From Ignavibacteriales bacterium (lineage in GTDB: Bacteria > Bacteroidota > Ignavibacteria > T3Sed10-11): a stretch of DNA of 36,945 nucleotides. A model generated the notes under the pieces. It ran no database searches, was not told the origin of the DNA, and saw nothing but the letters and a program-made list of their open reading frames with translations. The stretch spans positions 1 to 36,945 of the forward strand of contig PWYR01000056.1 in the NCBI GenBank assembly GCA_003567775.1. Direction: 5' to 3'. Made by a program: the position numbers and the translations under genes. Position 1 is the first letter of the stretch. Each line of letters begins with the position of its first letter. Shown here piece after piece: positions 1-17,453 of this stretch.

Positions 1-74
1 AATTCCCACTGAGCTAAACTAACAAGTGGGACGCATACAAATAAGACAAGAAGTAAAAATGTAACTCTTTTCAT
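1..74 (-). CDS. Secreted protein, N-terminal end only (runs off the left edge)
   Basis: An ATG at 74-72 opens a reading frame that continues to the window edge, giving 24 complete codons. It encodes Met-Lys-Arg-Val, then a long hydrophobic stretch rich in Leu and Val, then Ser-Leu-Ala-Gln-Trp-Glu, a typical signal peptide with a Sec cleavage site after Ala or Gln. An AAGGA ribosome-binding sequence lies about 10 bases upstream of the ATG. It follows the eight-gene outer-membrane run after a 177-base spacer and in the same direction, so it may be another member of that locus. The mature protein is outside the window and its function cannot be told. Confidence 0.7.
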   Translation of the reverse strand, partial: MKRVTFLLLVLFVCVPLVSLAQWE

Positions 75-251: not shown

Positions 252-1466
252 TCAATATTGCAACCCGTAGTACGGCGCTCCCTCGCGTTGTGTATTTATT
301 CGAATAAGCGCCTGGTTGTTATTCCCCGTTTCGCCTCTTGTGTAATATAGATTCGGTCCGTCTCCCCACGCAAAAATCATGCCGGTCGGTAAAATAAGAC
401 CGGGATAAAGTGATTCCCATCCATCACCGCCGGGGTTAACAACAATAATACCATCCGGACCATTTGTGCCGACATACATATATCCGTCCGCAGAGAAAGT
501 TATCGCCAGCGCGATGGCATTGTTGCTTCCATATTGTTCTGAAAAGTGGAAATATAATTCCTGTTCACCGAGATTACTTGCGTTATCCACGGCAAATCGC
601 CAAATACCCGATGTTGTGCTGCCATTAACATCCTTAACGGCTGATACATATAAGTAACCGTCAAAGTATCTCACCGATCTAATGTCTGCATTGAATGGAA
701 ACTCATCGACACTCTGATCGCCGACATCGACGCGGAAAATTGCATCATTATGTCCAACTACCCACAAATATCCATGTTCATCGAAATCCATATCAACAAA
801 CCGGGTACCCACACGTAATGGCAACCAGTTCTCCTCCGTCCCTCCGCCCGGCGGCACACGGGCAATAAGCCGCAAATTACGTACTAAATACAAAGAACCA
901 TCCGGGCCAAACTTCATCCCATCGTAACGGGGTATTCTCGGAGGCACGTATTCTTCCAATGTCCCATCCGCTTTTACCTTTTGGACGCCGTCGGAAGCGC
1001 CCGCCCGCGAAATTGAAACGTACACATTTCCATCGATATCGGCGGCAATCGCCCAGGGCGTTTGTGCATCGGTTAATGTACCATGCAATTCAATCGCCGG
1101 TTCAAGTGAATAAACTATTTCGTTGCTAAAAGCAATTGCGCCGGCAACCGCCACCCGCAATCTCAATGTGTCGCCTATTTCGTTCGGCGCACGAACGACA
1201 AGTTGTGTTTCCGAAGCTTCGAGCACATGTGCGGCTCGTGTACCGATATAGACCATGTTCTGATGAAGAATGGGAGAAAAGTTATTGCCGGTTATCGTAA
1301 TAATGCCAACGCCCGCAAGCGATCCGTCCGGAGGATCGACTGCAGTAATTTCAGGCGCCGGGTTGCCCCTCTCGTCCGGATCGAATAAGCTGCCCGGAGT
1401 GTCTTCTTCACAACTGACAAATAACAATATAATCAAAAGTGTGGCTATGATAGTCTTATAGTTCAT
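252..1466 (-). CDS. TIG-domain beta-propeller lipoprotein (downstream copy)
   Basis: Predicted surface or periplasmic lipoprotein of 404 residues. The first 18 residues form a hydrophobic signal ending FVS-Cys19, a plausible lipobox although Phe at -3 is not the commonest residue. Residues about 38-122 form an IPT/TIG immunoglobulin-like domain (PEITAVDPPDGSLAG, GNNFSP, VLEASETQLVV). From about 130 to the end, repeated units of the type 'DIDGNVYVS', 'GPDGSLYLV', 'DEHGYLWVV' and 'SADGYMYVG' indicate an NHL/SMP-30-like beta-propeller. It is a clear paralog of the lipoprotein at 7865-9082, sharing the order of domains and a near-identical tail (NTQRE.APYYG). It is the last gene of the eight-gene run, 25 bases after the FnIII gene. 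Ligand unknown; a SusD-like role beside the TonB-dependent receptor is inference. Start: ATG with AAGGTAG upstream. Confidence 0.82.
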   Translation of the reverse strand: MNYKTIIATLLIILLFVSCEEDTPGSLFDPDERGNPAPEITAVDPPDGSLAGVGIITITGNNFSPILHQNMVYIGTRAAHVLEASETQLVVRAPNEIGDTLRLRVAVAGAIAFSNEIVYSLEPAIELHGTLTDAQTPWAIAADIDGNVYVSISRAGASDGVQKVKADGTLEEYVPPRIPRYDGMKFGPDGSLYLVRNLRLIARVPPGGGTEENWLPLRVGTRFVDMDFDEHGYLWVVGHNDAIFRVDVGDQSVDEFPFNADIRSVRYFDGYLYVSAVKDVNGSTTSGIWRFAVDNASNLGEQELYFHFSEQYGSNNAIALAITFSADGYMYVGTNGPDGIIVVNPGGDGWESLYPGLILPTGMIFAWGDGPNLYYTRGETGNNNQALIRINTQREGAPYYGLQY

Positions 1467-1491
1467 TATTATTCTACCTTATAGAAATATA

Positions 1492-3639
1492 TTATCTAAT
1501 GACGACAAATTTCTTAAATGTTGAATCACCTGCCCGGAACAGCAATTCATTCGTATCAGGATCGTATTGATCTTCGGTAACAGTAAAATGTGCTATATAT
1601 ATCCCGCTCACAACAATCTGTCGTGACGATGTTATCGATTGCCACGTAGCATCGCCGCTGCCGTCGGTATGAGGTATGGTTTCGATCAGGTCGCCCCGTT
1701 CGGTATATATCCTAATCGTACATTGACCCGGGATATTTAAAAACATTATTTTATCGGGTTCGCCGGGATACTGCAGATGACGCGCCCGTATATTATAGGG
1801 GTTCGGAACCACCCGGATATCATCCAGTGATTTTCCCGGCGCTCTCTGCAAGAATGCCGGTTCGGTGGTCTTGGTATAAAACCGGCTGCTTTCCAACACA
1901 CCGGTTGGATTGGTTTCTCCCGATGTGTTGTTGCTTCCGTCATTATATGCGGTAATGTAATAGTAATACGATACGCCTCGTCTTGGATCGGTATCCTGGA
2001 ATTCGGTTGTACCGGGTCCTACCTCGGCAATCCGATCGAATGTCGTATCAGGTTTACCAACGCCCCGGTAAACCCTGTATCCGGCAAAACCCGGTTCTCC
2101 CTCCGAAGCACTTGGCGCCCAGGATAAGGTTATTCGATCACCGCCGGAAGTAACGTCAAATACAGGCGGCGGTTGCGGCGGCTGCGGGATAGTATATTCG
2201 CTCATAAAATTCCGGTACGCACGGCCAAAGGTTTGCATAATCGAATCTTTACCCGAATATGTCCACTCATTTTTAAATATATCTTTATCATTCGTTGTTG
2301 ATCCGTCGGGAAGAGTAAATGGTCCGGTATCCGAAGGATCGTCGAAAGCTTGTTTCCATCTTCGACCGATTTCCGTAGCTGTCTCACGGCTTAGTCCGCT
2401 CACACCTTCTGCCATAATAATGGTAATACTTTCATCGGGTTCCAACGTAAACGGACCGAAAGAATACCATAGATTTGTTCCGCCAGCGTCGCCATGCACT
2501 GAAGACGGGTCGGGATGAGTCTCCAGATATACCTCATCCATCCGATCGTTTCCGCCTAAACCCTGGTGCGGATTCCCTTGCAACATCGTGTACAACTGCT
2601 TCATCTGCGGTTCAGCAGCAGGAGACATATCACCGACAGAAGGATACGTATCCCCGGCATGCCAGCCCAGCACCACAGGTTGATGAGGATCATCCGATTT
2701 ATCTGCGCCGCTTTTATCAACGTGTAGAACGACAAATCCGGCATGCTGCACAGCGCGTAGTCGCCCATCGCCTGCACGATGTGGCCCTCCGATATTATCA
2801 TACGCATTCGCAGCATTTTGACCTGCCCACGAAAAACCTGCCCGCAGCCAGTCAACTATCGGATTATTCTCGGTGATGGGCTGTCCTGCATAGTCGGGAT
2901 AATTTTCTCCCCGTTTTGTTGCCCAACTATGTTTGCCCCAGCTTTGAGTTCCGCCGATACTAAACGACCCTTCCCGGCTTACACTGTATCGAATTTGCAG
3001 CGATACATACAGGTCATGCAACGTATTACGTAATGTTACGTCGTCTCCATATCCGGTTTTTCCGGTATTTGTAAATGTGTACTCGCGTATATGATAATTA
3101 TCGTGATACTGTTGACTGAACGCAAGTATCCGGCGGGTCATTGTTAACCCCATCGATGTGTTAACGACATTCGTGACAATTCGGTCAGGTATCTGATCGG
3201 GATCGTAGTCGTCGATATCCCGTAAATATTGAGCTGTTACATTCACCCCGTCAACGAGGACCGACGGGGGTTCGAATTTTGCGGTTTGTTCGTGTTTTAC
3301 CGGAAATATCGAGTTGCCGACATACCCTGCCGTAGAATGAACCGCATAAGTATCCCAATTCCTGCCGTCCCGGCCGATAAAATCCCGAACGCCGAACCAG
3401 AATCGTTCGATAACGGCATTGTCCGTCCAGGGATAATCGGCAGGCCATCTCACACCTTCATAGTAATTATTGTTCCAGGCGCGTTCTGAACCGTATGCGG
3501 TGTAATGATTCTGTAATTCACCGATCCTGATATATCGTGTACTGGTGCCCTCTACTTGGGCAAGAATATCTCCCGTAGAGAAAAATGCTATCAGGAACAC
3601 CGGAAAAAATATTTTTAATAGTTTTTTAATGCTGTTCAT
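1492..3639 (-). CDS. Exported FnIII-domain protein with C-terminal sorting-like module (downstream copy)
   Basis: Predicted exported protein of 715 residues. I chose the ATG at 3639 because a GAGGAAG ribosome-binding sequence sits just before it; an in-frame GTG at 3657 overlaps that sequence and is less likely. Residues 1-28 are a signal peptide ending ILAQ. The first about 480 residues have no domain I recognise, but contain aromatic-rich beta-strand sequence and the segment 'MAEGVSGLSRE', shared with the paralog. A fibronectin type III domain lies at about 490-575 (GGDRITLSWAPS, YRVYRG, YYYYITAYN). The last about 108 residues (RVVPNPYN, CTIRIYTERGDLI, SGIYIAHF, FKKFVVIR) resemble FlgD/T9SS type A C-terminal modules. 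It lies 51 bases after the TonB-dependent receptor gene. The role is unknown; its context suggests that it partners the receptor at the cell surface. Confidence 0.8.
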   Translation of the reverse strand: MNSIKKLLKIFFPVFLIAFFSTGDILAQVEGTSTRYIRIGELQNHYTAYGSERAWNNNYYEGVRWPADYPWTDNAVIERFWFGVRDFIGRDGRNWDTYAVHSTAGYVGNSIFPVKHEQTAKFEPPSVLVDGVNVTAQYLRDIDDYDPDQIPDRIVTNVVNTSMGLTMTRRILAFSQQYHDNYHIREYTFTNTGKTGYGDDVTLRNTLHDLYVSLQIRYSVSREGSFSIGGTQSWGKHSWATKRGENYPDYAGQPITENNPIVDWLRAGFSWAGQNAANAYDNIGGPHRAGDGRLRAVQHAGFVVLHVDKSGADKSDDPHQPVVLGWHAGDTYPSVGDMSPAAEPQMKQLYTMLQGNPHQGLGGNDRMDEVYLETHPDPSSVHGDAGGTNLWYSFGPFTLEPDESITIIMAEGVSGLSRETATEIGRRWKQAFDDPSDTGPFTLPDGSTTNDKDIFKNEWTYSGKDSIMQTFGRAYRNFMSEYTIPQPPQPPPVFDVTSGGDRITLSWAPSASEGEPGFAGYRVYRGVGKPDTTFDRIAEVGPGTTEFQDTDPRRGVSYYYYITAYNDGSNNTSGETNPTGVLESSRFYTKTTEPAFLQRAPGKSLDDIRVVPNPYNIRARHLQYPGEPDKIMFLNIPGQCTIRIYTERGDLIETIPHTDGSGDATWQSITSSRQIVVSGIYIAHFTVTEDQYDPDTNELLFRAGDSTFKKFVVIR

Positions 3640-3690
3640 TATAGTGTACTTCCTCACTAATACTATATTTGATCTTCGGACAATATGTGT

Positions 3691-6600
3691 TTATAAACTC
3701 AGTTGTATTCCGATTGTAATCTGCCGCGGATTCAAAAACGTGAGCGCCTGTATATTCGGATTATCGATGTACGAGCGCGTATCGATCCTTCGTTGGTTTT
3801 CTCCGGCAATTCCCGGATCGTTGTTCGGGTTGGGTACAAGCGGATCGTACTCAACGTTCCATGGTCTGTAGTCTCCGATCTTATCATCTCCTTTAAATAT
3901 TCCCTCACGCCATGAGAATCTCAGAGAACTCAGATAATCCTCCCAGTTGAACTGATCGGAAAAACCCGCCATGCTTATATATTTTATATTAAATACGTTG
4001 GAAATATCGACAAAGAACTGGAATCGGGTTTGAGCGAAATTAAACTCGCGCGCGATTCGCATATCGACATTGTAAAAGTCTCTCCATCGCACGTTATCGA
4101 CAACACCGGGGATACTATGCGGATTGTACGTTGCGTAGGCGCCGGCGCTCCAATTTGCAAGTATACTGATAAGCCATCCGCCAAGAATGTTTTCACCCAT
4201 AAACTCCGGTCCGAAATCGACGGGGGTGCGTATATTTATATTTGCGCGTGCGTACGGCTGCGGTCTTGGCCGGGATTGGTACGGATTAAGCCGGAGATAA
4301 TTCCTTTGTTTTGTCGGATCCTGATAGTATTGCCGTAAACCGAAAAAGCCGCTGGTTCTAACGTCGTATGTATAATTGATAAATCCCGTTATCCATCTCC
4401 CGGCTCGCTTATCGATGGTAACCTCAAAGCCCCTGATATCCGCATAGTTGTTATTTTCGGGAACATTGTACTGAACGGACCCGTCGAAGTTCTCGTAATA
4501 TACCCAACCGGGCTGATCCGATATATCCTTGTAATACGCAGCCAACCGCAACAGGAACATATCGAACAGATTTTGCTCGTACCCCAGTTCATAGGCGATC
4601 GTCTTTTCCAGATGCAGTCCCGGGTTGCCGAGATAGTTTACAAGTCCGTTGTTTTCCCGCTGTAACCTGAACCGCAGTGACGATGTCGGCTCCGATCTGA
4701 AATGCCCGTAATTGAAAAAGAGTTTTGAGTTTTCGGTTATCGGATGCGAAATGCCGAGCCGAGGGCTTATACTCCATGAGGGATCGACCCGTCGGGTGGG
4801 AACCTCTTCCTCGATCCGGTTCCCGTACCCCGGCGAGAGGAATTGATCGAATGTATCGAAATCATACCATTCGACGTTGGGTTCCGAAAATTCCATGCGC
4901 ACTCCCACATTTGCAATAAAGCCGCCGTATTCCATTTTATCCTGAATATATGTCGCAAACCGGTAAGGAAATACATTATACACCATTGAACGGGTCCAGG
5001 TATCCATCGACGGGCTTTCACTAAAGGAGCGTATCCTGTAATCGTTATAGGTGAAATGAAATCCGGCTTTAAACTGATGGTTCGGTGTGACCTGACTGGT
5101 TATATCGAAATTAAAAGCGGTCGTGGTATTTCGCGATTTGTCTCTCCCTAAATTCATCCAGCCGCCTAAACTCATGCCGTCGATGCTGGATTGAGCGTAT
5201 CCCATATACCCGAACGGCGACTCGTCAACAAAATAACCGGGGAAAATTTCATGCCGGAGCGTCGTATCGCGATCGGCAGTCTTAAAAGTGTTATACCGGT
5301 TTGCAATATATTGAACCTGTATTTCATAATACGTTCGAGGTGATATTGCATTCGTCAGACGCATACCGATCATATTTCGATATATCGAACTCGGGCTAAA
5401 ATAACCGGGCATATATAACACCGAGGGATTTACTGCGAGGTTCGCAATTTCGCTCTGACTTCTCACTACCCGTCCGGTCGGTGTGGTGATCCAGTTATAC
5501 GGTGATACGGATTTAACCTCGCCGTACAATCCGGTAATGCTTAGCTTCATCGAGGGAGTTATGTTGGACGTCAAACGAACCTGACCGAATTTATCCGAAT
5601 AGCTATCGCGCGACAGCGGGAATACAAACATCTCCCGCTCCTCATAGTACGTTGCGTGAAATCTCATATCGCCTAAGTTTGACGCCAAAAACGGAACAGG
5701 TCCTCCGAACCCGACGTCAACCACATAATCGGGTTTCTGGATCGTTCCATCGCGACGGCGGTGCCACTGCCATAATCGATACGCCTGTTCCGGCGTTAAG
5801 TCGGTGGCAGGATTTCCATCTTCAATGGTTCTCTGCGATACCGCATTCCAACCTTCGAATGAAGGATATTTTTTTCTGGTGTATGCATCCCAGCCGCCGC
5901 TGTGTGTTCCGGTCCACATCACCGCGGGATCGGTATACGGGCGATTGAAGTAGGAATCGGGGGCATACACCGAGGGACCGAAATTCTTCGGCCCGGGAGG
6001 ACTATAATGAATTATAGCTCTCGTGGAATATCTTTCAATCGATCCTTCGCGGGTAACCACGTTTACAATTCCCGAGCGAACATTACCGTACTCTGCATTA
6101 AACCCGCCGGTCTGAATTTGAACTTCCTGCAACGAACTCAAGCTGACTGCGGAATACGGTACATTCGAGCGCTCATCATTGAGGGATAAGCCGTCAATCA
6201 TAAACGACGTTTCTCTCGCCGAGCCGCCGCGAATAATGATGCCTTCTCTTCCCAATTGAATACCGGCGTGCAACGACAACACCTGGTCGATCGATTGTAC
6301 GGGCAATACTTCTATGGCTTCGGAATCTATAGAGACGACACTTGCCGAAACGTCCCGCTGGACGATCGGTCGTTCCGCAACGATGGTAACCTCATCCAGT
6401 TCCAGCGCCATTTCCCGCATTTCAATATTTAATGAGGTGGTTTGGTTTATAGCAACACGCACGTCGAGGATACGGACATTATCGTAACCGACCATTGTTG
6501 CGATCACTGTGTGCGTGCCGGGAGGAACATTTAAAATGTCGAAGTGCCCGGATGCATCCGTCGCAGCTCCGCGATATGTCCCTTCGATCACCACGTTTAC

Positions 6601-6723
6601 CCCGGCGAGTTCTGCGCCTGTCTCGGCGTCGGTTACCGTTCCCTCAATCTTGCCCGATTGAGCAAACAGAAAGAACGGAAAAACTATCAATAAAAAGATG
6701 CCTGGAACTAATCTCAACCTCAT
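3691..6723 (-). CDS. TonB-dependent outer-membrane receptor with carboxypeptidase-regulatory domain (downstream copy)
   Basis: SusC/RagA-like TonB-dependent receptor of 1010 residues, the size usual for this group. After a signal peptide (1 to about 22, ending LFAQ) comes a CarboxypepD_reg-like domain at about 24-108 (GKIEGTVTDAETGAELAGVNV, GHFDILNVPPG). The linker 'LDEVTIVAERPIVQRDVSAS' leads to a plug domain at about 125-235, with the typical IIRGG, DG and GGFNAEYGNVRSGIVNVVT motifs. The remaining about 770 residues are alternating, aromatic-rich beta-barrel sequence ending in a hydrophobic strand (QITIGIQLSL). Such proteins import glycan oligomers, peptides or chelates using TonB energy. 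It is paralogous to the receptor at 12300-15464, and an 18-residue stretch of the plug is identical in both. Substrate not readable; nearby amino-sugar enzymes hint at GlcNAc-containing material. Confidence 0.93.
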   Translation of the reverse strand: MRLRLVPGIFLLIVFPFFLFAQSGKIEGTVTDAETGAELAGVNVVIEGTYRGAATDASGHFDILNVPPGTHTVIATMVGYDNVRILDVRVAINQTTSLNIEMREMALELDEVTIVAERPIVQRDVSASVVSIDSEAIEVLPVQSIDQVLSLHAGIQLGREGIIIRGGSARETSFMIDGLSLNDERSNVPYSAVSLSSLQEVQIQTGGFNAEYGNVRSGIVNVVTREGSIERYSTRAIIHYSPPGPKNFGPSVYAPDSYFNRPYTDPAVMWTGTHSGGWDAYTRKKYPSFEGWNAVSQRTIEDGNPATDLTPEQAYRLWQWHRRRDGTIQKPDYVVDVGFGGPVPFLASNLGDMRFHATYYEEREMFVFPLSRDSYSDKFGQVRLTSNITPSMKLSITGLYGEVKSVSPYNWITTPTGRVVRSQSEIANLAVNPSVLYMPGYFSPSSIYRNMIGMRLTNAISPRTYYEIQVQYIANRYNTFKTADRDTTLRHEIFPGYFVDESPFGYMGYAQSSIDGMSLGGWMNLGRDKSRNTTTAFNFDITSQVTPNHQFKAGFHFTYNDYRIRSFSESPSMDTWTRSMVYNVFPYRFATYIQDKMEYGGFIANVGVRMEFSEPNVEWYDFDTFDQFLSPGYGNRIEEEVPTRRVDPSWSISPRLGISHPITENSKLFFNYGHFRSEPTSSLRFRLQRENNGLVNYLGNPGLHLEKTIAYELGYEQNLFDMFLLRLAAYYKDISDQPGWVYYENFDGSVQYNVPENNNYADIRGFEVTIDKRAGRWITGFINYTYDVRTSGFFGLRQYYQDPTKQRNYLRLNPYQSRPRPQPYARANINIRTPVDFGPEFMGENILGGWLISILANWSAGAYATYNPHSIPGVVDNVRWRDFYNVDMRIAREFNFAQTRFQFFVDISNVFNIKYISMAGFSDQFNWEDYLSSLRFSWREGIFKGDDKIGDYRPWNVEYDPLVPNPNNDPGIAGENQRRIDTRSYIDNPNIQALTFLNPRQITIGIQLSL

Positions 6724-6772
6724 TTCAATTCGCTCCGTTTAATAATTGGTTGCAAATTTCGTAGTTCTGTTC

Positions 6773-7795
6773 TTAAAATGCTAAATGTATAGAAAACCGG
6801 TGAATATCATTAAACACTGCAAACGGTGTATATGAATAATCGATCCCGACTCCGAACTGGGATACCCCGAATCCGAATGCTACACCGGATGCATCGTTAA
6901 TATGATTTGTAACATAACCGCCCCGGATAGCAAGCATATTCATAAATATATATTCGCCTCCGAAGCTTACATATTCGGGTCCCGCCCGCGGATGCGATGC
7001 ATCGACGGAAACATATAATTTGTGAGCTTCTACTCCAAGCGCCGGGAAGAAATCAAGAACGTTCATTGAAACGCCGAACCTGAACGTAAGCGGGAGTTGA
7101 AATCCCTCACGCTCAAACTGAATTTCCTGTGAGAAATTCCGGATCGACATACCGAAAACGAGACTGCGGTAGCCCGTTTCATACCGGGTGCCGAAATCGA
7201 ATGCGACGACTCCTTTTGAATAATCCTGATCCGTCGTTTCCAGATCAGCCGGATCGACGCCGGGTATAAATTCAATCGGTACGATGCTGCTGCCGAGAGA
7301 TTGGTACACATATCGCGCGTGCGCTCCAATCGAGAAGCTCTCGGATAACTCGATGCCGTACCCAAGCCCGATCGCCGTCGCAGTCGGTTTAAATGTTCCG
7401 GTCTCGATAAATCCCTGCTCATTTTCCGCCACACGGGTGCCAATGAATTCCCCGTAATCCAATACAAGATATGACAGGCCGAATACCCCGTACCTGCCGC
7501 CGAATGCTTTCAAAGCAGCAGTCCCCGATATATATTGTATATCGGCAATCCAATTGTGCTGATTTACCCGCACATCCACTTTGGAATCCAACCGCGCGAT
7601 GCCTGCCGGGTTATAGAATAATGCCGCGGAAGTTCTCTCTAATGTTGTAAACGCTTCAGCTAACGCAGTAGCGCGGGCATCCACACCGACGCTTAAAAAT
7701 TGAAAACCCGTCTGCGCCAATTTTTCCTGCGCTTGCACTCCGGAAGCGATGATGAGACAAGCAAGTAAGACGACTTTGAAAAAATGTCGAATCAT
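6773..7795 (-). CDS. PorV/PorQ-family outer-membrane protein (downstream copy)
   Basis: Outer-membrane beta-barrel protein of 340 residues in the PorV/PorQ (UPF0164) family. A signal peptide (1 to about 22, ending VQAQ) is followed by the family's N-terminal signature: 'LAQTGFQFLSVGVDARA', 'FYNPAGIARLD' and 'WIADIQYISG'. The rest is amphipathic strands ending in an aromatic strand (RFSIHLAF). In T9SS organisms the true PorV shuttles cargo at the translocon, but this family has many paralogs of unknown function. Genetic linkage to a TonB-dependent receptor argues for a paralog with its own partner rather than the core T9SS subunit. In this set it precedes the receptor gene, whereas in the upstream set it follows the FnIII gene. 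Start supported by AGGAG seven bases upstream. Confidence 0.88.
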   Translation of the reverse strand: MIRHFFKVVLLACLIIASGVQAQEKLAQTGFQFLSVGVDARATALAEAFTTLERTSAALFYNPAGIARLDSKVDVRVNQHNWIADIQYISGTAALKAFGGRYGVFGLSYLVLDYGEFIGTRVAENEQGFIETGTFKPTATAIGLGYGIELSESFSIGAHARYVYQSLGSSIVPIEFIPGVDPADLETTDQDYSKGVVAFDFGTRYETGYRSLVFGMSIRNFSQEIQFEREGFQLPLTFRFGVSMNVLDFFPALGVEAHKLYVSVDASHPRAGPEYVSFGGEYIFMNMLAIRGGYVTNHINDASGVAFGFGVSQFGVGIDYSYTPFAVFNDIHRFSIHLAF

Positions 7796-7864
7796 CTTTA
7801 TTCTCCTATAATGCTGACGTTGTTAACGCTTTTTATCAGCTAATCTGACTATTTCTATACTTTC

Positions 7865-9082
7865 TTATTGTCTACCGTAATACGGTGCACTTTCTCTTTG
7901 CGTATTTACCCGGATAATTTTCTGTTCATTATTACCGAATGCTTCTCTCGTAATAAACAAATTCGGTCCTTCTCCCCATGTCATCGCAAAATTCTTTGGA
8001 GACATCGTTCCGGGATAAAACGGCTCCCAGCTCTTATCGGGATATACAATAATGAGTGCATCGGGTCCGTCGGTGCCGACAAACATTTCACCGTCGGCGC
8101 TGAAGGTAATTGCAAAAGCGCCTGCGCCCGCCTGCCCGTATTCATGAGAGAATGCAAAATATAATTCCGGTTCTCCTACTACACCCGGTTCGGTGAACGG
8201 GAATTTCCATATATTATGGGTACCATCGTTGATCGCAGCAACATAAACCGCACCGTTGAATACCCGAACCGACCGCACGTCACTGTGCTCAAACGGAAAT
8301 GCTTCCACTTCCTTATCGGGAGTTATTCTGTAAATAGCGGGATTGTTATTTCCGCCGCCCCAGATATTGCCGTGCTCATCGAAATCGAAATCCCTTATTC
8401 TTCCCAATCCGCTGCCGAGCAGCCAGGGTGAGGCGGTTCCACCGCCCGGGGGGACGCTATAAATAGCAGGGAACGTTGCCGGTCCACGGGCAGCATAAAG
8501 ATGTCCGTCCGGTCCCATTTTCATATACGGATATATCCATGCCTGCCGGGGTGCATAACCCGACTGATCCTGATCGGGGGTAATCTTCTTAATGCCTCCG
8601 AACTCGTCAAGCCCCTCTATGGAAACATAGACATTTCCCTCGTTATCGGCGGCAAGTCCCCAGGGCGTCTGCGCATCTGCCAGGTCTCCCCACGCTTCCT
8701 CTACGGCAAGCTGTAGTTCATATGAATAGGTATTGCTGAACGATACGGCGCCGAGCACCGACACCCGCAATCTGATATCTTCTCCGCTCATAACCGGCGG
8801 TCGAACACGCAGTTGCGTTTCGCTTGCCTCGAGAACGGTACCCTTTCTATCGTTGAAATAGACCAGATTATTATCTGCATTCGCTGAGAAATTCTGACCG
8901 TTAATAGTGATATATCCTATACCGGCAAGGGCAACTTCCGGTGGATCGACGCTCGAAATTACCGGGTCGGGTCTTCCCTCATAATCATCATCATAGAGAC
9001 TCGGCGCATCGCCGTAATCGCAGCTTGCTATTATCAACAAGCTGCTTATAAGCATTATAGTTAGTATACTCCATTTTTTCAT
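7865..9082 (-). CDS. TIG-domain beta-propeller lipoprotein (upstream copy)
   Basis: Lipoprotein of 405 residues, paralogous to 252-1466. I chose the ATG at 9082, preceded by AAGGTGAG eight bases upstream; an in-frame GTG at 9091 overlaps that sequence. The signal ends IIAS-Cys21, a good lipobox. A TIG domain covers about 38-125 (PVISSVDPPEVALAG, GQNFSA, VLEASETQLRV). The rest is an NHL/SMP-30-like propeller with units such as 'DNEGNVYVS', 'GPDGHLYAA', 'DEHGNIWGG' and 'SADGEMFVG'. It lacks SusD-type TPR helices. Its ribosome-binding site lies within the last codons of the PorV/PorQ gene (14 bases between stop and ATG), so the two are probably translated together. No catalytic residues are recognised; ligand binding at the surface is the most likely role. 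Confidence 0.83.
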   Translation of the reverse strand: MKKWSILTIMLISSLLIIASCDYGDAPSLYDDDYEGRPDPVISSVDPPEVALAGIGYITINGQNFSANADNNLVYFNDRKGTVLEASETQLRVRPPVMSGEDIRLRVSVLGAVSFSNTYSYELQLAVEEAWGDLADAQTPWGLAADNEGNVYVSIEGLDEFGGIKKITPDQDQSGYAPRQAWIYPYMKMGPDGHLYAARGPATFPAIYSVPPGGGTASPWLLGSGLGRIRDFDFDEHGNIWGGGNNNPAIYRITPDKEVEAFPFEHSDVRSVRVFNGAVYVAAINDGTHNIWKFPFTEPGVVGEPELYFAFSHEYGQAGAGAFAITFSADGEMFVGTDGPDALIIVYPDKSWEPFYPGTMSPKNFAMTWGEGPNLFITREAFGNNEQKIIRVNTQRESAPYYGRQ

Positions 9083-9096
9083 AACTGTCACTCACC

Positions 9097-10128
9097 TTAC
9101 TTAAATGAAAATTGTAATGAGAATCTGTGAACATTCGAAAATATACCGAACGATGAATATGCATAATCTACTCCCAGATGGTAACCGCTGAGAGTCTGCT
9201 GCAAACCGACCCCCAAATTTATGCCCGCTTCATCGCTGGGAAACGCGTATCCAGCCCGCAGCGATAACGTATTATAAAACGTGTATTCACCGCCGATTTT
9301 TACCTGTTCATAATAATCGCGGGGACGTTCGGCGTCAACCGATACTAAAACTCTGTGCGGCGATTCTTGCCGGTTGAGAATGTCCATCATATTTACCGAT
9401 AAACCGATGCGGAAGGTGAGAGGAAGCTGAAACAGCTCCTCTTCGTACCGTATCTCTTCGGAAAAATTCCTTACACTCATTGCAAAGTTCAAGCTACGGA
9501 ACCCGACGTTGTAAAGAACGCCAAAGTCGAATGCTAATACGTCGACTTTGTTATCGGTTCTTACCTGATCGCCGTCGTCAATTCTCAAGACGCTTGAACC
9601 GAGGTTCTGACTCACAAACTTAACATTTCCCCCGACTGCAAACCGCTCGGTAATTGCGTTGGCATATCCTACCCCGATTGCCATTGCCGTCGGTTTAAAT
9701 GTTCCGATATCTATAAAGCCCTCGTCGGTATCCGCCCTGATCGTCTCCTGCATTTCACCGTAATCGACTGCCAGGACATTCACCCCGAAGACGCCGTACC
9801 TGCCTCTGGCGGGACTGAACGCGGCGGATGCAAAGTTATACTGTATATCGGCTATCCAATCGATGTATCCGAGAGAGACATTTGCATAACCGTCTAAACG
9901 CGACATGCCCGCGGGATTAAAAAACATTGCCTGGGAACCCCACTCCAGAGAGGTAACGGCATCGCCCATCGCCGCCGCTCTCGGATCGGTGGTTAGACTT
10001 AAAAACTTAAGACCGCTTTGCGCAAGCTTCCTCTGTTCTTCGCCGACTTGTACCTGTGCATGTCCGCGTAGTGGAAACAGACCAATGAACACACATACAA
10101 GAGTTACAAATACTATATTCCTTTTCAT
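9097..10128 (-). CDS. PorV/PorQ-family outer-membrane protein (upstream copy)
   Basis: Beta-barrel protein of 343 residues in the PorV/PorQ family. Signal peptide 1 to about 25 (ending GHAQ), then 'KLAQSGLKFLSLTTDPRAAAMGDA' and 'MFFNPAGMSRLD' as in the family, a 'WIADIQYNF' strand, and a terminal aromatic strand (RFSLQFSFK). It is a paralog of 6773-7795; both also share 'YGVFG', 'DYGE' and 'GTFKPTA.AIG.GY'. It sits 37 bases after the FnIII gene and directly before the TIG lipoprotein, all on one strand. It probably forms an outer-membrane channel or docking barrel for the exported partners. Whether it works with the T9SS is not shown by the sequence. An AGGTGATC ribosome-binding sequence precedes the ATG. 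Confidence 0.88.
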   Translation of the reverse strand: MKRNIVFVTLVCVFIGLFPLRGHAQVQVGEEQRKLAQSGLKFLSLTTDPRAAAMGDAVTSLEWGSQAMFFNPAGMSRLDGYANVSLGYIDWIADIQYNFASAAFSPARGRYGVFGVNVLAVDYGEMQETIRADTDEGFIDIGTFKPTAMAIGVGYANAITERFAVGGNVKFVSQNLGSSVLRIDDGDQVRTDNKVDVLAFDFGVLYNVGFRSLNFAMSVRNFSEEIRYEEELFQLPLTFRIGLSVNMMDILNRQESPHRVLVSVDAERPRDYYEQVKIGGEYTFYNTLSLRAGYAFPSDEAGINLGVGLQQTLSGYHLGVDYAYSSFGIFSNVHRFSLQFSFK

Positions 10129-10165
10129 ACGATCACCTATTCATTTAAAACAAAATTTAAAATCT

Positions 10166-12235
10166 TTACCGGATGACAACAAACTTTCTCATAGCCCGTT
10201 CACCGGTTTCATGATTTTCGATGACTGCGATATACACACCGCTCACAACCACCTGTCGCGACGAAGTGGTAATATCCCAGAATGCATCACCGCTGCCGTC
10301 GGTGTGTTCGATGGTTCTGATCAATTCGCCGAGTTCGGTGTAAATTTTTATGGTGGCTTCACCCGGGACATTTAGAAACGCAAGCCGATCCTGAACATCA
10401 TAACGCACCGTTCGATCCTGGGAAATACTGTAGGGATTAGGAACAACGCGAATATCAGTCATTGCTTCACCCGGTGCGCGTCTGAGAAATGCGGGGTCGT
10501 ACGTTTGAGTCCAGTATCTGCTGCTTACAAGCTCTCCATCGGGCGCCATCCATGTAGGGGTTCCAGGGGGTGCATCTGCAACGCTTTCGATGTAATAAAA
10601 ATATTGCAAACCGCGAATCGGATCGCGGTCGTCGAACGAATTCTCGTTCGGCGACGCTTCGTGAATAAGTGTATAGGTACTGTCCGGTCGCTCGGTTGCA
10701 CGGTAAATTCTATAAGCTTTAATATCCTGTGCGTCGGGATGCGGATCCCACGAAATGGTTATCCGGTCGCCGCCGGAGTTCACCTCGATCAGACTCGGCG
10801 GGAGCGGCGCTCTGGGAATATTATATCCGGACTCAAAATTATCTATCGCGCGTTGAAATGTCTGGAAAAGAGAATCCCTTCCGGTGAGAACTATTTCGTT
10901 CTTTTCATAGTCGGAAAGGGCGCCGTCTTTATATAATCTTCCAACCCGAATCGCTTCATCCCTGCTCAATCCCGCCACACCTTCTGCAACCACGATCCTG
11001 AAACTCTCTCCCGGACCGAGCGTATACGGTCCGTATCCGTTTGCATAGGAAAAACCGCCCGAAGTACCGAGATTGGGGTTGGTTCGTTGCGCCGCAAAGT
11101 CTCCGGAAGGTTCTACCGCCCAGGCATGTCTCGGCGTCCGGTGCCCGCGTGTCATCAGATCATACTCCTCTCGCATACGCGCAGGATTGTACGGATCATT
11201 CCCGGAATTCAAACGATCGTCCGAACCGACATACGATGTGGTAGAGGGCTGGTCCGGGTCGTTGCTCGGGTCGTTCGGACCACGGTCGGCATGGATGGTT
11301 ACCACACCGCCATGATGAGGCGCGCCCAATCTGCCGACGGTGTCAGCGGCGTCAATGTATGCCGGACTATCCTGGTACCATATCGGCGCACCAATATTGT
11401 CATAGGGAACAGTTTTTGTAGGATCATAGCCGTGCCACGCAAATTGTGCACGAAGGTTGACATCATCCGGATCGATGCCGGGTACACCGCGTGTATCGGT
11501 CATCGTGTTTCTGCCCCAGCCGGTGTGGTTGCCGATTAAATATCTTGTTTCCCGAACCGCAGAAAGCCGGCTCTGGAAAAATATGACAATATCGTTCAGT
11601 GTTTGATCCGGCAGTTCAATATTCGGATCGTCATTCACGTTGCCCGTATTGGTAAATATATATTCCATAATGTGATAATTATCGTGCCCCTCGACACTGA
11701 ACTGCTTGATTCTCCGTTCCATCGTAAGCCCTATCTGGGTGTTCACGATATTACGAATCATCACATCGGCGTCGATGGTCGGGTCGAATTCGTCTACATC
11801 CATCGGCGACTCGCTGAACTGAAGGTCGCCGTCGACAAAAACAACGGGAACTTCAAACCGGCTTATCGTGGTAAAATCAATCGGGAAGAAAACACCGCCG
11901 CCCGAGACGCGTGGACCAACATGCACCACTTTTCTATCCCAGAAATCACCGCGCGGATCGTTAAAATCTTTCACCCCGATCCAGAGCGCTTTTGCCGCCT
12001 GCATATCCTGATACGGATAAATGCCGGGCCATCGCATTCCGAACTGCTGCACGTTGCGCAATCCGTGCTCGATTTCCATTCCTACTTCCGAATACCAGTT
12101 ATGAAGCGAGCCGGCTGATAACCAGTTGGCTCGAAACTGAGCGTCGGTGTTTTGTGAAAATCCGATCAACAGTAATATTATGATACATACTATAGTATGC
12201 ATCCGTTTTATGTTATGTTTATGTAAAACCCTCAT
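10166..12235 (-). CDS. Exported FnIII-domain protein with C-terminal sorting-like module (upstream copy)
   Basis: Predicted exported protein of 689 residues, paralogous to 1492-3639. An N-terminal hydrophobic segment ending NTDAQ serves as signal peptide after an 11-residue basic start; Met12 is an alternative start but has a poorer ribosome-binding site than the GAGGAG before the first ATG. The large middle region (about 35-475) is unrecognised but is shared with the paralog (QIGLTMERRI.QFS..GHDNYHI, VAEGVAGLSRDEA). A fibronectin type III domain spans about 476-560 (GGDRITISWDPHP, YRIYRATERPDSTY). The last 95 residues (RVVPNPYS, ATIKIYTELGELI, HTDGSGDAFWD, SGVYIAVIE, KFVVIR) resemble FlgD/T9SS C-terminal modules. 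The conserved aromatic-rich N-terminal region could be a binding domain; this is inference. Confidence 0.8.
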   Translation of the reverse strand: MRVLHKHNIKRMHTIVCIIILLLIGFSQNTDAQFRANWLSAGSLHNWYSEVGMEIEHGLRNVQQFGMRWPGIYPYQDMQAAKALWIGVKDFNDPRGDFWDRKVVHVGPRVSGGGVFFPIDFTTISRFEVPVVFVDGDLQFSESPMDVDEFDPTIDADVMIRNIVNTQIGLTMERRIKQFSVEGHDNYHIMEYIFTNTGNVNDDPNIELPDQTLNDIVIFFQSRLSAVRETRYLIGNHTGWGRNTMTDTRGVPGIDPDDVNLRAQFAWHGYDPTKTVPYDNIGAPIWYQDSPAYIDAADTVGRLGAPHHGGVVTIHADRGPNDPSNDPDQPSTTSYVGSDDRLNSGNDPYNPARMREEYDLMTRGHRTPRHAWAVEPSGDFAAQRTNPNLGTSGGFSYANGYGPYTLGPGESFRIVVAEGVAGLSRDEAIRVGRLYKDGALSDYEKNEIVLTGRDSLFQTFQRAIDNFESGYNIPRAPLPPSLIEVNSGGDRITISWDPHPDAQDIKAYRIYRATERPDSTYTLIHEASPNENSFDDRDPIRGLQYFYYIESVADAPPGTPTWMAPDGELVSSRYWTQTYDPAFLRRAPGEAMTDIRVVPNPYSISQDRTVRYDVQDRLAFLNVPGEATIKIYTELGELIRTIEHTDGSGDAFWDITTSSRQVVVSGVYIAVIENHETGERAMRKFVVIR

Positions 12236-12299
12236 TACTTATTCTCCTCATTAAAATTCTGTGAGAAACCGAGATAATCTCAAAATATAAAATAATGTT

Positions 12300-15200
12300 C
12301 TACAAACCGATCGATACTCTCAAGCCGAAGAATATATTTCTCGGATTAAGAAATGTGAGAAAACCTTGATTCGGCATTTCAATATACGCGCGATTGTCAA
12401 GCACGTCATTTACGAAATTGGGATCTGCCTGTACCCAATCGCCGTTGCTGTATCGCAGGTATTCGCCCGTCCCGACGTGATAATATAATACACGTTCGTG
12501 CGGATTCGAGACTGCAGAAACGTCGCGAACGCCTTCCATCGGAACGAATTCCGTACCTGCTTTGCGATATTCACCCGGTCGATCGTTGCCCGGTATCAAT
12601 ACATAATCGAGCTGCCGCGCCTGATCTTCGGGGAAATCAAGATGAAGCGAACGCATATAGTTATTATAATCGTCTCCATCGACGAAACCGTATCCCCCGG
12701 AACTCATATGCTTGTGATTGAATACGTTGCTTATGTCCATAAAGAATTGGAAGTTCGCACCGGCAACTTCAAAGTTTTTACTAAATCTCATGTTGAGATT
12801 ATAGTAATCTTTCCATTGCACGTTGTTGCTGATGCCGGGAATAACCGCGCCGCCCATCCAGGTGAAATAGGTTCCCGCACTATACGATCCCAGCAAATTC
12901 AACCGTACGTCGCCAAGCCAGTGTATGCCTGCAAATTCAGGACCGAAATCCTTCGGGGTAAAGAAATCCAGATTTGCCCGACCATACGGCTGCGGCACCG
13001 GACGCGCTTGATAGTGCGCTTCCGTAGTTCTTTCGTACCGTCGTTGCTCGGCAGGATTCTCAAAGTATTGACCAAGACCGAAATTACCGAAGCTGGTAAC
13101 CTGATAGGTATAGTTCACAAAACCGCTTGTCCATCTGCCCATGCGTTTCGTCAGGGTAAATTCAAATCCGCGAACATCGCGGTAGTTATTCGGATAAGTG
13201 CGAATATAATTTATCTGCCCGTCGCGGCTGCTAAATCTCACAAGACGCGGTTGCAACGAAATGTCTCTGTAAAATCCGGCGACGCGCAACAGGAACATAT
13301 CGAAGAGGTTGTGTTCATAGCCGAGCTCATACGCAACGGTCTTCTGAAGTGGGTTATTCGGGTCGCCGATTCGGGAAAGTGCATTGGTGTCGGTAAATCT
13401 CCGCACCATAAAAATGTCGTCTGAACGTGGCATTGACCTGAAGTGACCGTAGTTGAAGTACAGCTTACTATTCTCCGTCACCGGGAATGAGACGCCGAGC
13501 CGCGGACTTAACGTGACCTGTCTGTCAGTCGGCTCCATTGTCATAAGCGTATCGAGACCCGGAACATTGATAAATGCACGGTCGAACGGATTCTCAATTA
13601 GATACCATTCATCTTGTGCGTGGAAATAATCCACCCGTAACCCGATGTTGGCTATCATACCCTCGAATTCGGTTTTATTCTGGAGATATAAACCGCCGCG
13701 AAGCGGATTTCTATCCCAGACATTAAAATACCTACCTGAAGGCAGGTATTCATCGACCTGACCGTAATTTATATTGTGATTGGTATACACAAATTCTACT
13801 CCGGTCTTAACCTGGTTGTAGCGATTCCATTGACTGGTAATATCGAACTTACCGCTCCAGTTTGCAACCTGCGATGAATCGCGGGAGTTGCTCATACCGA
13901 CTCCCATACGCATTCCCGATCCGATTGCATCGGACGGGAACGGATAAAAACCGTACGGTCCTTCGTCGACCATCACACCTGCGACTTCGTACACACGGGA
14001 AGTGTCTCTCATCCTTCCCGGATTGGTGTCATACGATGTGCTAAAATGCTCAAGTGTAACTTCGTAATAGGTATCGGAGCTGATGGCATTGGTGAACTTA
14101 CCGCCGATCATCCACCTGTCGATCGAAGACGGCGCCCAGTAGTCGGTGCTGAAGAGTCTTGAATCAATATAACTGACCCGGCTCAGAGCACTTCCGATAC
14201 CTCCGGACGAACGGAAAAGACCTGGCAAACCGGCATTGTTATTATTCGTTCCCCATTGTCTTCCGTATAAACCCTGAATCTGTAATTTCATTCCGGGACC
14301 GACGTCCGAGGTAATTTTCATTTGAGCGTTATAGTCCTGATAACTATCGGTATGAAGAGGAATCACATACATTTCTCTTGTTTGTTTCCACGATGCAAAA
14401 AATCGTGCATTGCCCAGCATTTCACCGAAGTACGGAAAGGGACCGCCGAAACTTACTTCGATATCTTCATCCGGTCTGACGATCTCCATCGGCTTCCTGT
14501 AACGCCACAGGAATATTTGCTGCGCCTGTTCGGGGGTGAGATCGGTGCTCGGATCTCCGTCTTCCAATGTTCGTTCGGCAATGGCAATCCATCCCTCAAA
14601 CTCCGGGTAACTTCTTATGTCGAATCTATCCCATGCACCGCTATTGGTTCCGTGCCATGCAACCTCGGGATCGACATACGGCCTGATCCAGTATGAATTG
14701 GGATCGTTTGCCGGCGCGCCGAAATGTTTTTGCGCGGGCGGACGGTATCGTGTCAAAACATCAATGGTATACATATCGCGCCTCCCCTCGCGCGTAACAA
14801 CGTTTATGATTCCGGACCTTACGTTGCCGTACTCAGCATTAAATCCACCCGTCTGTATCTGTATCTCCTCAACGCTTGTAAAGCTGATATTGGTATACGG
14901 TGTGTTGTCACGTTCGTCTCTCAATGTAAGACCGTCGACCATAAAGGCAACCGGATCAAAAGTAGAATGTGCGCCGCGTACCGTAAGCCCCTGTATTCCT
15001 GCCTGAAGGCCGACCACACTGGATACATCGACAACAGGCAGGTTTTGTACTTCTGCCGCACTCAGGTTAACCGTACTTGCGGAAACATCACGCTGAATGA
15101 TCGGCCTCTCGGCGATAATGATAACTTCGTCAAGCTCAAACGCAGCGTCGGTAAGCTCGACATCGATTTCCGTTGTCTGGTTAATGCTAACACGAACGTT

Positions 15201-15464
15201 TCTCACGGTAACCGGATCGTATCCGATCATCGAGAAGCGGAGTTCGTGTTCACCCGGCGGGACATTCAATATATTATAATATCCCTCAATATTTGTCGCC
15301 GATCCCATCATAGTGCCGACGATTACTACGTTGGCGCCAATGAGCGGCTCTTCGGTTTGTGAATCCGTCACTGTACCCGTTATCCGACCCGTCTGGGCGA
15401 ATGTAAGTGAAGTACACAAAATAACAAGCAGCAATCCAACACAAAATAAATGTAACATCCTCAT
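12300..15464 (-). CDS. TonB-dependent outer-membrane receptor with carboxypeptidase-regulatory domain (upstream copy)
   Basis: SusC/RagA-like receptor of 1054 residues and first gene of the eight-gene run. Signal peptide about 1-23 (ending TFAQ), CarboxypepD_reg-like domain about 25-110 (GRITGTVTDSQTEEPLIGANV, GYYNILNVPPGEH), linker 'LDEVIIIAERPIIQRDVSAS', plug about 125-235 (TVRGAHSTFDPVAFMVDG, GGFNAEYGNVRSGIINVVT), then a long beta-barrel ending in 'NIFFGLRVSIGL'. It differs from its paralog mainly by inserts in the barrel, for example a Gly/Asn-rich segment near residue 415 and an extra region near the C-terminus (about 960-1020). These could be substrate-selective loops. GGAGGAT lies eight bases before the ATG. 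A possible promoter lies about 140 bases upstream. No SusD gene accompanies it. Confidence 0.93.
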   Translation of the reverse strand: MRMLHLFCVGLLLVILCTSLTFAQTGRITGTVTDSQTEEPLIGANVVIVGTMMGSATNIEGYYNILNVPPGEHELRFSMIGYDPVTVRNVRVSINQTTEIDVELTDAAFELDEVIIIAERPIIQRDVSASTVNLSAAEVQNLPVVDVSSVVGLQAGIQGLTVRGAHSTFDPVAFMVDGLTLRDERDNTPYTNISFTSVEEIQIQTGGFNAEYGNVRSGIINVVTREGRRDMYTIDVLTRYRPPAQKHFGAPANDPNSYWIRPYVDPEVAWHGTNSGAWDRFDIRSYPEFEGWIAIAERTLEDGDPSTDLTPEQAQQIFLWRYRKPMEIVRPDEDIEVSFGGPFPYFGEMLGNARFFASWKQTREMYVIPLHTDSYQDYNAQMKITSDVGPGMKLQIQGLYGRQWGTNNNNAGLPGLFRSSGGIGSALSRVSYIDSRLFSTDYWAPSSIDRWMIGGKFTNAISSDTYYEVTLEHFSTSYDTNPGRMRDTSRVYEVAGVMVDEGPYGFYPFPSDAIGSGMRMGVGMSNSRDSSQVANWSGKFDITSQWNRYNQVKTGVEFVYTNHNINYGQVDEYLPSGRYFNVWDRNPLRGGLYLQNKTEFEGMIANIGLRVDYFHAQDEWYLIENPFDRAFINVPGLDTLMTMEPTDRQVTLSPRLGVSFPVTENSKLYFNYGHFRSMPRSDDIFMVRRFTDTNALSRIGDPNNPLQKTVAYELGYEHNLFDMFLLRVAGFYRDISLQPRLVRFSSRDGQINYIRTYPNNYRDVRGFEFTLTKRMGRWTSGFVNYTYQVTSFGNFGLGQYFENPAEQRRYERTTEAHYQARPVPQPYGRANLDFFTPKDFGPEFAGIHWLGDVRLNLLGSYSAGTYFTWMGGAVIPGISNNVQWKDYYNLNMRFSKNFEVAGANFQFFMDISNVFNHKHMSSGGYGFVDGDDYNNYMRSLHLDFPEDQARQLDYVLIPGNDRPGEYRKAGTEFVPMEGVRDVSAVSNPHERVLYYHVGTGEYLRYSNGDWVQADPNFVNDVLDNRAYIEMPNQGFLTFLNPRNIFFGLRVSIGL

Positions 15465-15665: not shown

Positions 15666-17453
15666 TTATTTAATCAACTCGAAAAAAGACTCAATTCCTT
15701 CTATAACCGCTTGTGCTATCTTTTTCTGTACATCGATATCGAGGAGATCCATTTCCTCTTCAGGATTTGAAATAAAAGCCGTTTCAACAAGCACATTCGG
15801 TATTTCGATTAAATCGTTCAAAAGAAAATTGAAGCTTCCGACGACCCCGAACTCGGCAAAACCGAGATCGAGCATCTTTTCATACATTATATCGGCAAGC
15901 GGTTTATACCCGATATGTTTATAGTAGGTACTCGTTCCGCGAACCCGTTCGGGATCGCTTGCATATCCGATTGAATTTGCATGAATGCTTATAATAAGAT
16001 CGGGATTTCCCGATATAACTTTCTCAACCCGATCTGCCATCGGTACATCGTAATCACCGGTGCGCGTCATTATGACAGCGACGCCTTGCACGGTTAATTT
16101 TTCCTCGATAAATTGTGAGATCGCGAGAGTAATGTCTTTCTCCATCGCTCCCGTAGCGCCGAGCGCCCCTCTATTGTCCCCGCCGTGTCCCGCATCGATT
16201 GCAATAATTCTTCCGTGTAATAGATTGGCAGGATCACCGAGCGCCGGCGGACGACGAATAATGATGAGCATGTTGCCCGTATCGGTATACTCTATACGGT
16301 GTCCCCAGTGTACCGGGTGATTTAATTCGATTTGTAACCGGTATAGGTCGGTAGAGACCTGCTCCCACGTAATGTTTTCTATACCTTCTGCCGACAGGTG
16401 ATGCGTTACCCAGGTAGTATTTGAGGTCACTCCATAAATATCGATTACTATTCTATTGGGGTTTATTAATTGCTGCGTAAGATAAGGTAATTTTTGACCG
16501 AGTTGTAAAGAGACGACATCGGCGGCGGGGCTTCCTGCGGTGCTGATCGATCCGGCTAACGCTCGCGGGGGAGGCGCGCTCGATGGTATAATATCAATAA
16601 ACCGCGATTGGATCCACGCCGTCATATCATCCGCTAACCGCACACGATACATTCGGCCTACCCTGCCATCCAATTGCAGTACAACCCCGGGTTCTACAAA
16701 TCCGAGACGGGCGCCCCCGAGTCGATCGGTTCCCAATCCGGCATTAAAAAACGGGCGGTTGCCGATAACTTCCGCCCTATAAGGTAGTTTACCAGGTTTA
16801 ATGCTTATACGCCCTGGAGATTCCGCCTCAACACTGTTCCAGAAGTCGCTCCGCAACCTGAAACGTACCGGAACGTCGAGTGTAAAATCATCTTTTTTAA
16901 CCTTATAATGACCTGCGTAAATTCCACTAATGCCGCCTGTTGAATTCGGAGGCAATTCACGCATTTCAATGTCGCTTTTTACGCCTTCGATATCGAATGA
17001 TGCTTCATAACCGGGACTGCCTTTGAATCGAACTTCGAGTATGTCACCTTCGTTCAGCCAGAGATCTCCCACGGGCTGCATAAAATAATCTTCGATAGTG
17101 AGCGGCTCTTCCGGCGACGTTTCGGGCGGTTCCGGTCGAATAACCGTAAATGACTTCGTCAGCCGTTCTCCTGTATCCGAAACAGCGGCTATCGAAATCT
17201 TATTTTCACCACGGCCAAGATTAACCAGACCGACAAACGCGCCGCTCGGGTACACCTTTACCTGTCGGTCATTAATATAAGCGGTTGCATTTGGATGAGT
17301 ATTGGCGGCGATGCGATAACGGGGAACGTCAATCGTGATAACTTCGCTTTCGGGAATTATTACATTCAGATAAAGTGTATCGACTTCCCGACCCCCGGCG
17401 GTCAGCAGAAATAACACAGAGAAAACACTGCAAATAAAGAACCTGTACATCAT
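15666..17453 (-). CDS. Exported N-acetylmuramoyl-L-alanine amidase (Amidase_3)
   Basis: Zinc amidase of 595 residues that cuts the bond between N-acetylmuramic acid and L-alanine in peptidoglycan. Signal peptide about 1-20. Residues about 25-290 hold beta-rich, SH3- or Ig-like regions (for example FVEPGVVLQLDGR and YRVRLADDMTAWIQSRF near 252-286, typical of an SH3-like unit). Residues about 310-400 look like an AMIN-type domain (RIVIDIYG). The C-terminal Amidase_3 domain (about 415-592) keeps the zinc ligands His423 (DAGHGG), Glu438 (MEKD) and His491 (SIHAN), and the catalytic Glu557 (VETAFISN). It is last in the minus-strand amino-sugar cluster, 78 bases after the DUF4954 gene. A cell-division or remodelling role (AmiC-like) is the main alternative to nutrient scavenging. 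Confidence 0.93.
   Translation of the reverse strand: MMYRFFICSVFSVLFLLTAGGREVDTLYLNVIIPESEVITIDVPRYRIAANTHPNATAYINDRQVKVYPSGAFVGLVNLGRGENKISIAAVSDTGERLTKSFTVIRPEPPETSPEEPLTIEDYFMQPVGDLWLNEGDILEVRFKGSPGYEASFDIEGVKSDIEMRELPPNSTGGISGIYAGHYKVKKDDFTLDVPVRFRLRSDFWNSVEAESPGRISIKPGKLPYRAEVIGNRPFFNAGLGTDRLGGARLGFVEPGVVLQLDGRVGRMYRVRLADDMTAWIQSRFIDIIPSSAPPPRALAGSISTAGSPAADVVSLQLGQKLPYLTQQLINPNRIVIDIYGVTSNTTWVTHHLSAEGIENITWEQVSTDLYRLQIELNHPVHWGHRIEYTDTGNMLIIIRRPPALGDPANLLHGRIIAIDAGHGGDNRGALGATGAMEKDITLAISQFIEEKLTVQGVAVIMTRTGDYDVPMADRVEKVISGNPDLIISIHANSIGYASDPERVRGTSTYYKHIGYKPLADIMYEKMLDLGFAEFGVVGSFNFLLNDLIEIPNVLVETAFISNPEEEMDLLDIDVQKKIAQAVIEGIESFFELIK

Follow-up and report, generated by a model that had tools for sequence, protein, structure and literature searches.

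A SusD-free TonB receptor module with an FnIII protein, a PorV-family barrel and an exchangeable propeller lipoprotein, conserved across several phyla

Introduction

Genes for a TonB-dependent receptor (TBDR), an FnIII protein, a barrel of the PorV/PorQ family (here PorV) and a lipoprotein that joins a TIG domain to a beta-propeller (TIGprop) form a conserved module without SusD. The module is deeply kept across several phyla, and its gene order is far beyond chance. Two sets of these genes lie in one stretch of DNA from an Ignavibacteriales bacterium (the window, which is the whole contig C36 of 36,945 nt from a genome that is 68% complete), and an earlier note on this DNA had read them as a distinct machine with its own part list. 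That claim now has strong support from synteny, from co-occurrence and from the correlated divergence of the receptor, the FnIII protein and the barrel. No earlier description of the module was found in the open-access papers searched, and the likeliest reading is TonB uptake assisted by a lipoprotein, in a form that is new.

The uptake of large nutrients in the wider Bacteroidota, outside the classical users of SusCD, is poorly known. A three-gene core that is kept across phylum-level lineages, together with a swappable recognition part, offers a counterpart to SusCD that can be searched for and tested.

Conservation of the gene set

With one FnIII protein as the query, the FnIII family was found in 19 of 61 genomes; in two members of the genus the matches, part of them fragments, number 11 (G002) and 8 (G004). 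TIGprop gave 24 matches in 14 of the 61, all 14 of which also carry FnIII, and 22 of the 24 share a contig with FnIII. A scan of named genomes tells the same story at longer range: among the best 80 loci matching the FnIII query, with Ignavibacteria, Rhodothermales, Balneolales, Calditrichota, KSB1, Chlorobiaceae and WOR-3 among the groups named in their titles, the layout TBDR-FnIII-PorV-TIGprop repeats almost throughout. The receptor lies upstream of FnIII in 70 of the 74 informative loci, PorV lies downstream in 70 of 73 and TIGprop in 58 of 63, and the four-gene set is complete in 55 of 62. Nearly all of the loci come from MAGs. Because these 80 loci are the top matches of the query, a phylum-wide draw was examined as well. 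FnIII is present in 79 of its 396 genomes; in 20 FnIII stretches chosen from 14 of the genomes drawn, the receptor precedes FnIII in 19 and PorV comes after it in 17, with TIGprop in 11 and a lipoprotein of the ASPIC/FG-GAP type in 5. (FnIII is also present in L062, L092, L131, L179, L182, L183 and L187.) Checked in this way in related genomes, the four families are not usually found apart.

Some T2 pairs (the lineage of set 2, see below) in the genus stand without adjoining PorV and TIGprop, and FnIII genes are at times found without a receptor (L177, L083, L084). FnIII-family genes at L174 and L177 look damaged or receptor-less, which suggests decay or a separate role. In a single-contig genome (L170 and G063:C1:2253485-2254222), the receptor of an ASPIC-type module reads as two pieces, and a SusD gene lies some 7 kb upstream. 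A lipoprotein-like family of about 318 residues occurs at 15 loci, where its genes separate FnIII from PorV or lie close to the module; examples are L099:4786-5739, which is without a Pfam match, and L105:11051-11992.

Parts of the module in the window

The run at 252-15464 comprises eight ORFs, all on the minus strand and separated by gaps of 5 to 69 bp (Table 1). Both the families and the coordinates that had been assigned to it are borne out. In the order of transcription, from high to low coordinates, it reads TBDR, FnIII, PorV, TIGprop, PorV, TBDR, FnIII, TIGprop. The two sets had been described as the same four families head to tail; their family content is indeed the same, but their order is permuted, TBDR-FnIII-PorV-TIGprop in set 1 and PorV-TBDR-FnIII-TIGprop in set 2. 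Between the sets, pairwise identity is 43% for the receptors, 38% for FnIII, 46% for PorV and 49% for TIGprop. Beyond the last ORF, a 24-residue open frame at 74-3 resembles the starts of the T9SS-exported propeller PROP450 in L009 and L052, where this protein lies downstream of TIGprop and scores E 2e-41 and 3e-147 on the PROP450 profile; the run thus holds at least nine genes. An Rfam search gave no match.

Table 1. Genes of the module and candidate partners in the window
Feature	Position	Strand	Evidence
PROP450 (T9SS-exported propeller), start with signal peptide	1..74	-	MKRVTFLLLVLFVCVPLVSLAQWE; gene cut by contig end
TIG + beta-propeller lipoprotein, set 2	252..1466	-	TIG E 4e-11
FnIII protein (putative exported surface protein), set 2	1492..3657	-	T2 group, 22 rows, SH-aLRT 100
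TonB-dependent receptor, set 2, lineage T2	3691..6723	-	CarbopepD_reg_2 + Plug; falls in T2 receptor group
PorV/PorQ-family barrel, set 2	6773..7795	-	NF033709 195 bits
TIG + beta-propeller lipoprotein, set 1	7865..9091	-	TIG E 1e-11; lipobox Cys; AlphaFold2 pLDDT 92.5
PorV/PorQ-family barrel, set 1	9097..10128	-	NF033709 205 bits; under PorV and PorQ equivalog cut-offs
FnIII protein (putative exported surface protein), set 1	10166..12235	-	PorZ-like T9SS C-terminal domain; AlphaFold2 pLDDT 90.7
TonB-dependent receptor, set 1, lineage T1	12300..15464	-	CarbopepD_reg_2 + Plug; fails SusC model TIGR04056
Amidase_3/AMIN cell-wall amidase, upstream, candidate partner	15666..17453	-	Pfam E 1.6e-37
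Glucosamine-6-phosphate isomerase-like protein, amino-sugar context	19549..20367	-	Pfam E 6e-21
Amidase_3 + Big_5 protein with T9SS C-terminal domain, candidate partner	25675..28251	-	Pfam
PD40 propeller protein, candidate partner	28248..29195	-	Pfam; homologue beside amidase near modules
GH20 beta-hexosaminidase-like protein, amino-sugar context	31727..34315	-	Pfam E 2e-15

By their scores on the SusC/RagA model TIGR04056 (86.5 and 74.1 bits, where the cut-off is 368), the window receptors fall outside the SusC family. A framing as a SusC-type locus without its SusD is ruled out by this result: with receptors outside the SusC family, there is no SusC locus from which SusD could be absent. SusD (PF07980) was not found in the organism's own, 68% complete genome, and it is present in 15 of the 61 relatives; among these 61, 8 of 11 near-complete carriers of the module are without it. 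On the module contigs of relatives it was not found except in G040, about 32 kb off. Of 20 further carriers 11 have SusD, near the module only in G063, where a variant module has one copy about 7 kb upstream. The possibility that SusD sits next to these receptors in relatives was thus examined, and SusD lies outside the module even in this nearest case.

The two receptors have exactly 18 residues in common in the stretch QIQTGGFNAEYGNVRSGI, as the earlier note had observed; it starts at residue 202 in both. Small variants of this stretch occur in many of 98 related receptors; it is a conserved family motif, which marks kinship rather than recent copying, and its identity between the two sets is ruled out as a special signal.

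A Pfam search with the FnIII proteins gave no whole-protein match. Of 61 members, 47 match the PorZ model at the C-terminus and 30 match the type A C-terminal domain (CTD) there (E 0.05); the window FnIII scores 15.9 bits on the type A model TIGR04183, against a cut-off of 23. The predicted structure ends in seven strands, at 596-687. A structure search with the N-terminal domain gave no confident match, and a carbohydrate-binding fold for this domain was rejected (the matches were to GH94 phosphorylases, with query TM-scores of at most 0.24).

Both window barrels pass the PorV/PorQ family model NF033709, whose cut-off is 90 bits, and fall below the cut-offs of the equivalog models NF033710 (73-79 against 250 bits) and NF033711 (90-98 against 220 bits). 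The set 2 barrel also gives a weak match to the BamG model. A canonical PorV and PorU are encoded at C104 in the organism's own genome, which supports the presence of the T9SS in this organism, and in nearly all of the 61 genomes they are encoded elsewhere than the modules; the module barrels are therefore additional. SprA is found in 60 of the 61; the one without a match is the organism's own genome, which is incomplete.

Both window lipoproteins combine the TIG domain (E about 1e-11) with propeller-like repeats. Among 63 TIGprop sequences the lipobox Cys is invariant, and the five residues after it hold a raw mean of 1.9 acidic residues. The top PDB matches of the AlphaFold2 model (mean pLDDT 92.5) include the Bacteroides structures 3HRP, 3TC9, 4HW6 and 3KYA, with nearly full-length alignment; 3TC9 and 4HW6 were deposited under the title 'auxiliary nutrient binding protein'.

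A core that diverges together and an exchangeable slot

Pairwise distances are strongly correlated between the receptor and FnIII (0.93), between FnIII and PorV (0.84) and between the receptor and PorV (0.82), with shuffles staying below 0.37. For TIGprop the correlation is about 0.5, and with the receptor it ranges from 0.09 to 0.55. To control for shared descent, distances of FnIII were set against those of PROP450 or GHL10 genes linked to it, which gave 0.35 and 0.38; the receptor-FnIII correlation in those subsets is 0.70 and 0.78. From the correlated distances and this control, the receptor, FnIII and the barrel are a gene core that diverges together, and the propeller is exchangeable. 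In five of the phylum-wide stretches the place after PorV, either directly or a few genes on, is taken by a lipoprotein that has FG-GAP repeats and an ASPIC/UnbV domain, which also has a propeller-type architecture, and TPR lipoproteins lie nearby. The lipoprotein is not what defines the module; it is the part most open to exchange, loose in its divergence and with a slot that another class can refill.

In an FnIII tree built by a quick method, the set 2 protein falls in a group of 22 rows (SH-aLRT 100), with loci from Calditrichota and others among its members, and the set 1 protein falls elsewhere; the T2 receptors likewise form one group, with support 1.0. On these trees the receptors and FnIII proteins of sets 1 and 2 are two anciently separated lineages, T1 and T2. 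Tandem T1/T2 pairs are seen again in the Caldithrix-like L086, L097, L103 and L111, and also in L134, L137, L157 and L159. The separate groups and the permuted order rule out tandem duplication of a four-gene block, so the sets cannot be taken as simple tandem copies. Receptors and FnIII split into the same two lineages; the TIGprop copies behave differently. Its orthologue aside, the nearest row to the set 1 TIGprop is the set 2 TIGprop of the window, and TIGprop was therefore probably duplicated or exchanged later than the receptor/FnIII split.

Neighbouring genes and the likely cargo

The genes around the modules include cell-wall and amino-sugar enzymes. L053 has a 602-aa ORF before its TBDR-FnIII genes, in the place that matches that of the Amidase_3/AMIN gene of the window; homologues of the Amidase_3 + Big_5 protein adjoin T1 modules in several named loci, and at L008 T2 pairs flank a GH20. 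Of the best 80 named loci, 51 have a T9SS-exported propeller after the module genes and 26 have a GHL10 protein nearby. In 7 of 11 module genomes the distance from GHL10 to a module is no more than 12 kb, against an expectation of 0.3 adjacent genes. The specificity of GHL10 is taken here from E. coli DigH, which we take to be a GHL10 protein. DigH degrades denuded peptidoglycan strands (PMC12288456). The amidase, GH20 and GHL10 neighbours suggest a cargo of peptidoglycan or an amino-sugar glycan; since the neighbouring enzymes vary, the assignment to peptidoglycan is contextual.

Three further features of the window were noted. An imperfect 27-nt inverted repeat with the core CCCCGTAGGGGTGA lies between two genes at 25464-25581, and the only other place in the genome with its 14-base core is close to the end of contig C102. 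An ORF on the plus strand at 34426-36261 reads like a fusion of the pabB/pabC type, and a similar ORF ends L044 beside a T2 pair. The 790-residue protein at 22929-25301 has a NagB-like motif and a weak match to PIG-L, below the cut-off.

A proposed mechanism and its alternatives

The chances are about even that the module genes encode a TonB-dependent uptake complex of the outer membrane. In such a complex, the type IX secretion system (T9SS) would export the FnIII protein across the outer membrane by way of its PorZ-like C-terminal domain. The module barrel would keep this domain at the surface in the way that PorQ holds PorZ, and the FnIII protein would become a fixed extracellular subunit beside the receptor. 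The propeller lipoprotein may capture the ligand and pass it on in the manner of BtuG with BtuB, and the receptor would then import it with TonB energy. On the precedent of BtuG and XusB, it is plausible that the lipoprotein substitutes for SusD; a reading of it as a lid has against it that TIGprop diverges loosely with the receptor, unlike a tight lid. Also counting against the complex are the type A score of the FnIII C-terminal domain, which stays under the cut-off, the lack of a confident structural match for the FnIII N-terminal domain, and the T2 pairs and FnIII genes that stand apart from other module parts. The cargo would most likely be an oligosaccharide freed by the secreted hydrolases encoded nearby, probably from peptidoglycan or another amino-sugar glycan, and the two old lineages in the window may work side by side, perhaps on related ligands.

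One alternative, which seems unlikely, is a complex for surface assembly or attachment rather than import: a structural coat or a modified form of the T9SS attachment complex, in which the receptor would be a source of energy or a scaffold. The closest relative of the FnIII C-terminal domain is that of PorZ, a subunit of the attachment complex, and the barrel BamG, which the set 2 PorV weakly resembles, holds BamH and so shows that barrels of this sort can scaffold (PMC12611786). Attachment is already covered, however, by the PorU/PorV encoded elsewhere in nearly all of the 61 genomes, and the modules are patchy, may be present in several copies (as many as 11 FnIII matches in one member of the genus) and adjoin hydrolases, as uptake loci do. 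Uptake of a non-glycan ligand (a metal chelate, a cofactor or a peptide) in the manner of XusAB and BtuBG, with the hydrolases incidental, also has rather little probability. The propeller lipoproteins in solved TonB complexes do bind siderophores or vitamin B12, and the receptors are not of the SusC type, but GHL10, amidases and GH20 are linked to the module repeatedly, the best structural matches of the propeller are nutrient-binding TIG-NHL proteins of Bacteroides, and the expansion of lineages suits diverse glycans. A loose neighbourhood of independent surface proteins that share regulation alone and form no joint complex is quite improbable: TIGprop and receptor distances are weakly correlated and some members stand alone, but the order of receptor, FnIII and barrel is kept across phylum-level groups, the core trio share divergence beyond that of FnIII with the linked PROP450 and GHL10 genes, and another propeller class refills the lipoprotein slot.

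Returning to the uptake complex, a more specific proposal is offered tentatively and at less than even confidence: an undescribed class of outer-membrane importer that is widespread in groups such as Ignavibacteria, Rhodothermia and Calditrichota and their relatives. Here the T9SS would build part of a TonB transporter complex, a dedicated PorQ-like barrel would permanently hold FnIII next to the receptor, interchangeable propellers would set specificity, and one branch would scavenge peptidoglycan glycans. Were the T9SS to supply a fixed subunit of a TonB transporter in this way, two surface systems that are usually studied separately would become linked, and the PorV-family paralogues, of which these genomes have many, would gain a role beyond secretion.

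Comparison with known systems

Parallels are found in Bacteroides, where the propeller lipoprotein BtuG acts as the lid of the TonB transporter BtuB for vitamin B12 (PMC10404256) and the propeller lipoprotein XusB serves the TonB transporter XusA for xenosiderophores (PMC13142918). As in these systems, the module encodes a beta-propeller lipoprotein, probably of the cell surface, together with a TonB receptor; the module propeller differs in having an N-terminal TIG domain, the sequence families are distinct, and neither BtuBG nor XusAB has been described with a PorV-family barrel or a CTD-bearing FnIII partner. The Bacteroides TIG-NHL proteins (3HRP, 3TC9, 4HW6) share the two-domain architecture of TIG and propeller and match over their full length in structure, but at 10-16% identity, and their function is given in the titles of the depositors alone.

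SusCD/RagAB likewise places a TonB receptor with an N-terminal CarbopepD_reg domain beside a surface lipoprotein and secreted hydrolases. The module differs in its receptor, which fails the SusC/RagA model, in being without SusD, and in the addition of a PorV-family barrel and a putative T9SS-type surface subunit.

The pairing of a PorV/PorQ-family barrel with a putatively secreted protein that has a PorZ-like C-terminal domain recalls PorQ-PorZ and PorV-PorU, of which PorQ anchors PorZ at the surface (PMC5562754); a FadL-like barrel, BamG, similarly holds the surface lipoprotein BamH in the BAM complex of F. johnsoniae. The module barrels differ in that they fall below the equivalog cut-offs, lie inside a TonB receptor operon and coexist with the canonical PorV/PorU. 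A single PorV normally serves type A CTDs, and for type B CTDs there are dedicated shuttles with linked genes (PMC12618676). The module resembles the type B CTD with its PorP/SprF shuttle in that a putatively secreted protein is genetically linked to its own barrel, but the module CTD is nearer to type A and PorZ, and the barrel is of the PorV/PorQ family rather than PorP/SprF.
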